64,000 nucleotides of DNA from Aquipseudomonas guryensis. Lineage in GTDB: Bacteria > Pseudomonadota > Gammaproteobacteria > Pseudomonadales > Pseudomonadaceae. The position numbers and the translations under genes are program-made. The notes under the pieces were generated by a model. The model saw nothing but the letters and a program-made list of their open reading frames with translations, was not told the origin of the DNA and ran no database searches. Where the stretch lies: the NCBI RefSeq assembly GCF_014164785.1, contig NZ_JACJFN010000001.1, forward strand, positions 124,001 through 188,000, given 5' to 3'. Position 1 is the stretch's first letter. Each line of letters starts with the position of its first letter. Positions 29,309 to 29,537 of this stretch are shown here, one piece after another.

Positions 29309-29537
29309 CTTAGAACCTGCTTACGATCTCCTGACTCGCGGCCATACCGCGTTAAAAACGGCCTCGGAAGCCGTTTACGGCTAACGCGCTTCAGCGCGAC
29401 CCGAAGGGCGAGTGCAACGAGTCATGCTCATTTACAGCTCGTAAACTGCGCTTCCTCGGCGTTTTGACCAGCCGAAGGCTGTTACTACGTAGCGCCTTGT
29501 CTGGCTCTAATTCAGAAGATCGTAAACAGGTTCTTAG
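29309..29537. mobile_element. MITE-like element, about 220 bp, non-coding
   Basis: Imperfect terminal inverted repeats of about 21 bases (beginning AACCTGCTTACGATCT on the left and, as reverse complement, AACCTGTTTACGATCT on the right; two mismatches) bound an internal region with no open frame. The sequence CTTAG flanks both ends directly (29309-29313 and 29533-29537), which could be a five-base target duplication, or three bases TTA if the repeats are longer. Internal self-complementary segments (for example AAACGGC and GCCGTTT at 29354-29376) suggest folding. This element fills most of the 331-base gap between guaB and the next gene. Confidence 0.65.

Follow-up and report, generated by a model that had tools for sequence, protein, structure and literature searches.

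The insert beside guaB in Aquipseudomonas guryensis is a real, long-settled miniature transposon of a very widespread family. We encountered it in a continuous stretch of 64,000 nt of genomic DNA (hereafter the window). In our judgement it is very probably a non-autonomous MITE that an IS5-family transposase has moved in trans and that belongs to a family modular in its core and ends, with selected placement at stop codons.

In keeping with the sequence-only reading of the locus, the element has internal palindromes, no long open frame and a size close to the suggested 220 bp (221 bp as measured; Table 1). That reading had further described terminal inverted repeats of about 21 bases with two mismatches, flanked by CTTAG direct repeats. 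The terminal repeats are present, refined here to 17 bp with one mismatch (GAACCTGCTTACGATCT and GAACCTGTTTACGATCT). The CTTAG flanks are present as well, but the duplicated target is TTA rather than CTTAG; the outer C and G belong to the preferred target CTNAG, and their combination with the TTA duplication gave the appearance of a 5-bp repeat. The window copy is a lengthened member of the modular family, and its first insertion was spanned by blastn matches both in its own genome and in relatives.

Table 1. Coordinates in the window of the element and of its surroundings. R1, model of the whole element; R2, model of the core.
Feature	Position	Strand	Remarks
MITE	29313..29533	+ (oriented by core)	221 bp; 140-bp chassis plus two insertions; matches R1 model positions 1-140 (E 1e-12); multicopy
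Left target duplication TTA	29310..29312	.	
Right target duplication TTA	29534..29536	.	
Left 17-bp terminal inverted repeat	29313..29329	+	
Right 17-bp terminal inverted repeat	29517..29533	-	
Core hairpin, 5' part (GCGTTAAAAACGGCCTCGGAA)	29349..29369	+	Read against L017, alignment A1
Insertion 1, about 55 bp, within core	29370..29424	+	Read against L017, alignment A1; common to some other copies
Core hairpin, 3' part	29425..29466	+	Read against L017; R2 match 29407-29468, 33 bits
Insertion 2, about 27 bp	29467..29493	+	Read against L017; similar in L061
guaB (name presumed)	27761..29230	-	Start at ATGCTGCGTATC
guaB promoter TTGAGT-17-TATAAT, intact	29268..29296	-	Recognisable by eye in 18 relatives
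Gene upstream of guaB, 183 aa	29562..30113	-	Ends 25 bp from right duplication

Across the whole genome, the end pattern (up to 3 mismatches) gave 57 and 53 matches on the two strands, whereas the reversed control gave none on either, so the matches are not due to chance. Removing 15 nested or spurious pairs from 68 raw end pairs left 53 cleaned copies at 53 places. Copies with both ends thus number at least 53 in the genome and range from 78 to 253 bp, and 24 of them measure exactly 140 bp. Perfect 3-bp duplications flank 29 of the 53 copies, every one of them TNA (TGA 19, TTA 5, TAA 4, TCA 1), against a rate of 24.9% when left and right flanks were paired from different copies. The full CTNAG is found in 16 of these 29 copies, while the outer C or G is missing in the other 13. 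Four of 11 junction comparisons, representing two loci, show a relative that lacks the element and keeps a single stop codon: the L326 locus is empty in L390 (stop TTA), and the L036 locus is empty in L377, L391 and L384 (stop TGA). The remaining seven comparisons are less clean and count against our explanation. The multicopy state, the lack of coding capacity and the empty sites in relatives together bear out the initial proposal of a non-autonomous mobile element.

That proposal had placed the transposase elsewhere in the same genome, where searches with PF01609, PF13340 and the partner's own protein detected none (0 matches), a result that counts against our explanation; the resident copies are therefore probably stranded. 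Full-length transposase elements with the same ends (type A) do exist in other bacteria. When named genomes were scanned for the end together with its TNA, at least 118 stretches were returned, located, among the matches listed, in Chromobacterium, Chitinimonas, Undibacterium, Lampropedia, Nitrosomonas, Pseudomonas peli, P. indica and others. We examined 80 of these loci, which include two 964-bp elements in Ca. Thiosymbion (L156 and L205) with type A ends and perfect duplications (TTA and TAA), and an 891-bp element in an Acidobacteria MAG (L162) with type A ends and a perfect TCA duplication. An 849-bp element on a Pandoraea plasmid (L298) carries a transposase, a TTA duplication and two mismatches per end. 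The proteins of these autonomous elements match PF13340 and PF01609, and we take such TNA-duplicating IS5-family insertion sequences to be the IS1031 subgroup. L156, L205 and L162 encode their transposase in two frames; for L156, the second frame scored above and the first below the cut-off of the NCBIfam IS5 model NF033580. In L156:5143-6106 and L162:2071-2961 the frames are split around seven or eight A residues, which suggests frameshifting or slippage.

These IS5-family insertion sequences resemble the MITE in their 17-bp ends and TNA duplication. Unlike it, they carry a transposase and show no match to R1 or R2, so that the ends alone are common to both, a point that we count against our explanation. 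Within the genus, the search with the partner protein gave a match in 16 of 298 genomes. In three of the 298 (L266, L273 and L275) we found short remnants of the partner transposase with 74-84% identity, lying beside a type A end in L266 and L273. Type A ends were absent from all 30 PF13340 loci retrieved for the genus. A type A or related end is also contained in the Xanthomonas oryzae PCR primer T679RIGHT, as given in the available part of PMC4853030, the one paper to which the open-access search with end strings led, and the duplication assayed with this primer is reported in an excerpt of PMC2432079 as flanked by ISXo5. ISXo5 may be a further partner.

The 140-bp elements (approximate length) carry a core hairpin of about 73 bp. 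Among 50 aligned copies of this length from the own genome, other Pseudomonas, Chromobacterium and a viral contig, 16 of 21 pairs displayed compensatory changes (161 cells versus at most 26 in slid controls). A set of 38 further elements, 37 of them new and one (L351, same sequence as L184) repeating a row of the 50-copy alignment, gave compensatory changes in 17 of 21 pairs, with 97.7% paired and 111 cells versus at most 21 slid. In the core alignment of 76, 95.5% were paired, 18 of 21 pairs had changed on both sides, and 245 cells covaried, compared with at most 42 slid and 72.7 shuffled.

With the whole-element model R1, matches were obtained in 85 of 99 genus genomes (E≤0.001) and in 92 of 274 genomes of the class (E≤1e-6), the latter distributed over 80 of 222 genera. 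For the core model R2 (E≤1e-5), the phylum yielded matches in 88 of 398 genomes, which represent 37 of 212 genera. Since the best 32, 11 or 12 candidates per genome were scored in these searches, the resulting copy numbers are lower bounds. Weak R2 matches also occurred in small genomes of other classes (such as family f208), and L444, the one inspected, has no clear ends. Viral contigs contained 18 stretches with the end pattern, two of which have paired ends. L136:2237-2376 is a 140-bp element of the core type with a perfect TTA duplication, and L132:2167-2433 has the same ends around another interior, flanked by TTA on one side and TAA on the other; such contigs are a possible vehicle between genera. 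L138 has one end after TAA, and the remaining viral stretches look like chance matches. No counterpart of the element was found in plasmid or phage records. A search of open-access full text with end and core strings found no description of the family, and the accessible portion of a MITE review (PMC10969869) does not mention it.

About ten end types were found on the core, three of which match different IS5-family insertion sequences. Sorted by eye, the 38 further elements carry type A ends or close variants in 18 cases and others in 20, namely ends beginning GGCTCTGT with variants (6), CAGACTGTGTGAAAA with variants (7), CAGGCTGTTGAAAAA with variants (6) and GAACCTCTGATTTATTC (1). Clear ends, defined as 13 or more of 18 positions, were present in 19 of 29 elements found with R2, adding GAGGGTGTCTACAAAAT, GAGGCTGTTTGGTGATT, GGCGTGTTGACATTCAC, TGAGACCTTTGCACGAT and GGGCCTGTTAACACTCC; the other 10 were left out of the list of types. 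Type A ends match the insertion sequences L156, L205, L162 and L298. The GGCTCTGTACGAAA ends occur in 17 of the 30 PF13340 loci, on insertion sequences of 910-947 bp with a TA duplication. The GAGGGTGTAGACAAAAT ends were located at five places, on four insertion sequences of about 1177 bp and a fifth of 912, and this end is the one listed for ISPsy19 in the available part of PMC3189936. Around fetched transposase loci, paired ends were seen for 4 of 13 end strings versus 2 of 65 shuffled strings. Type A ends also enclose unrelated, often highly palindromic interiors (L132, L170, L172, L211 and L213, for example), so the core is not needed for these ends to move, which likewise weighs against our explanation.

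For 41 of the 53 own copies, the TNA that is duplicated or flanks the element coincides with the in-frame stop codon of an upstream open frame 60 or more codons long, as judged from simple open-frame calls. A first background estimate from the window alone gave 17 of 31. In 224 kb of the own genome, stop codons lay at 44 of 110 non-coding CTNAG sites, against which the observed placement is enriched (Fisher p 1e-5). Stop-codon-specific targeting by the transposase was rejected as not needed, given this share of sites outside genes that already are stops. Target choice and selection account for much of the placement. Were half of the intergenic sites harmful, stop-codon placement of about 57% would be expected by simple arithmetic, leaving less to explain. 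Not accounted for in this way is the orientation of the 41 copies: the stop codon lies on the sense side of the core in 35 and on the opposite side in 6 (p 5e-6).

The orientation bias extends to other genera and other end types. A set of 59 end pairs, some of them overlapping, taken from loci of named genomes, viral contigs and relatives gave 20 versus 5 (p 0.004), and 57 other elements, including other end types, were left-only in 23 cases, right-only in 9, both in 11 and neither in 14 (p 0.02), with exact stops at 15 versus 3; the sequence shared by L351 and L184 is counted in both sets. We considered target asymmetry as the cause and rejected it, as the stop copies differ from the other copies, which split 4:7 (Fisher p 0.0025; classified by hand, with L016 left out of 12 such copies). 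Terminator strength was likewise rejected. T-tract scores favoured the gene sense in 24 of 26 own copies and 20 of 24 others, which is the right direction, but the means differ little (1.45 vs 1.35 and 1.63 vs 1.26). A terminator scan of the window copy found none, and a terminator role of the core is weakly supported.

Small palindromes of other kinds had to be weighed against a MITE that depends on a DDE transposase. A palindrome of the REP/REPIN or ERIC-like type would also be multicopy, short, palindromic and mostly located at gene edges, yet the 17-bp ends, the precise target duplications and the matching IS5-family insertion sequences render this reading scarcely credible. REP/REPINs are GTAG/CGTC-tagged palindromes of 20-40 bp tied to a tyrosine transposase, an anatomy unlike that of the window element. 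ERIC and the enterobacterial RU elements (RU-1, 127 bp) are small palindromic mobile intergenic sequences, and in these respects our element is like them by description, not by sequence; we know of no case of several end types on one core among them. The GCGTTA motif brought an integron attC site into consideration, which was rejected because the motif and its partner are not paired across the core (alignment A3, by eye). As for the variety of ends, ends and cores might have diverged together by descent with their transposases, without any swapping, and the CTGT-like motif seen by eye near the tip of many end types fits such a history. Within the genus, however, cores with different ends are as alike (identity 0.811 for type A vs B/C) as cores with the same ends (0.814 within A), and more alike than same-end cores from Chromobacterium and a single viral contig (0.706). 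Core similarity thus tracks the host and not the ends, so the ends appear to have been swapped, and joint descent is unlikely.

Alternatively, the core could be a structured RNA, either a small RNA or an mRNA 3' element, that is selected at the RNA level and has incidental ends. This would agree with the strong compensatory changes, the conserved loop sequences, the orientation bias relative to the upstream gene and the stable RNA fold of the window copy. The mismatch cells of the core alignment (20 G-U, 36 A-C and 36 others) stand against it, compared with 31 G-U and 0 A-C in 21 tRNAs from the same loci, where the tRNA finder may itself favour G-U; other G-U vs A-C counts were 17 to 29 and 7 to 11. 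The lack of a G-U preference points to a hairpin at the DNA level. Such DNA-like pairing would be expected of a cruciform or a single-strand hairpin, or if one arm were copied from its partner. The window copy had no Rfam match at E≤1, and in four loci with 140-bp copies the element had none at the gathering threshold, with only 6S RNA matched elsewhere. An RNA-level role is accordingly possible but doubtful. The RNA fold was better on the strand not facing the gene in 49 of 50 copies, so RNA from that opposite strand may have a role.

At the guaB site, comparison with 18 genus relatives shows that the insertion is real, the element being absent from the orthologous promoter in all of them; five carry one end-like match (≤5 mismatches) at least 364 bp from the guaB promoter, none of them a pair. 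The -35 TTGAGT starts at 29296 and is separated from the CTTAG flank by 12 bases, precisely the distance initially given. This proximity speaks for a change in guaBA control by displacement of upstream regulatory DNA, and the sequence-only reading had suggested that such DNA was replaced. The -35/-10 and about 12 bp above them are nevertheless intact, and above about -45 nothing is common to the 18 relatives: as judged by eye, small groups share some sequence there, and several have unrelated DNA. With the promoter intact and no common upstream sequence, displacement of a regulatory site is unsupported and altered guaBA control is very unlikely; most likely, the element spares the promoter and would have little effect. 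The copy lies 25 bp beyond the stop codon of the upstream gene, in the minority orientation. Other, unrelated palindromic repeats occupy the intergenic space upstream of guaB in further relatives (L081, L083 and L084), as if inserts were tolerated there.

Several described elements offer parallels. According to the available part of PMC3189936, MITEPsy1 of P. syringae is likewise a short Pseudomonas MITE, possibly IS5-derived, with a short target duplication; its own features are a length of 100 nt, GGAAGGTCTGAAAAAGCC ends, a 4-nt duplication (CTAG or YTAA) and six copies in strain 1448A. MITEAba12, as presented in an excerpt of PMC6382973, similarly ranges across a bacterial family and was assigned by its ends to a resident insertion sequence, and is distinguished by its 111-114 bp, 9-bp duplication, GGCTTTGTTGCACAAA ends and occurrence in Acinetobacter and one Moraxella. 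The accessible text of PMC2718517 describes intergenic repeats of P. fluorescens (such as R178 and R6), several families of which are biased to sites between convergent genes. R178, with 101 bp and internal 11-bp repeats, is possibly identical with our element when compared by description only.

In the mechanism that we propose, an IS5-family transposase would recognise GARCCTGTTYACGATCT ends, prefer CTNAG, duplicate TNA and move the element in trans; the ends, the duplications and, at some loci, empty sites were observed. The chassis of about 140 bp with its core is found joined to the ends of different IS5-family insertion sequences, probably by way of end swapping. As TNA targets include TGA and TAA, an insertion at a stop codon would regenerate the stop and leave the protein intact. 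Selection would then keep insertions at stop codons, mainly in one orientation, the core when read in that direction probably being harmless or useful at the 3' end of a gene, for example by ending transcription.

MITEs are usually viewed as remnants of a single insertion sequence, which disappear once it is lost. Tentatively, and as a conjecture somewhat short of even chances, selection may act on the 73-bp core itself. As a DNA hairpin, it would render insertions at gene 3' ends harmless or useful, and it would have spread across Pseudomonadota by repeatedly acquiring the ends of whichever IS5-family transposase was resident, the non-autonomous element thereby outliving each partner. A single covarying core that carries the ends of several IS5-family branches in many genera suggests end exchange as a survival route for non-autonomous elements, and TNA targeting, stop codons included, would be a simple means of insertion that leaves genes intact.
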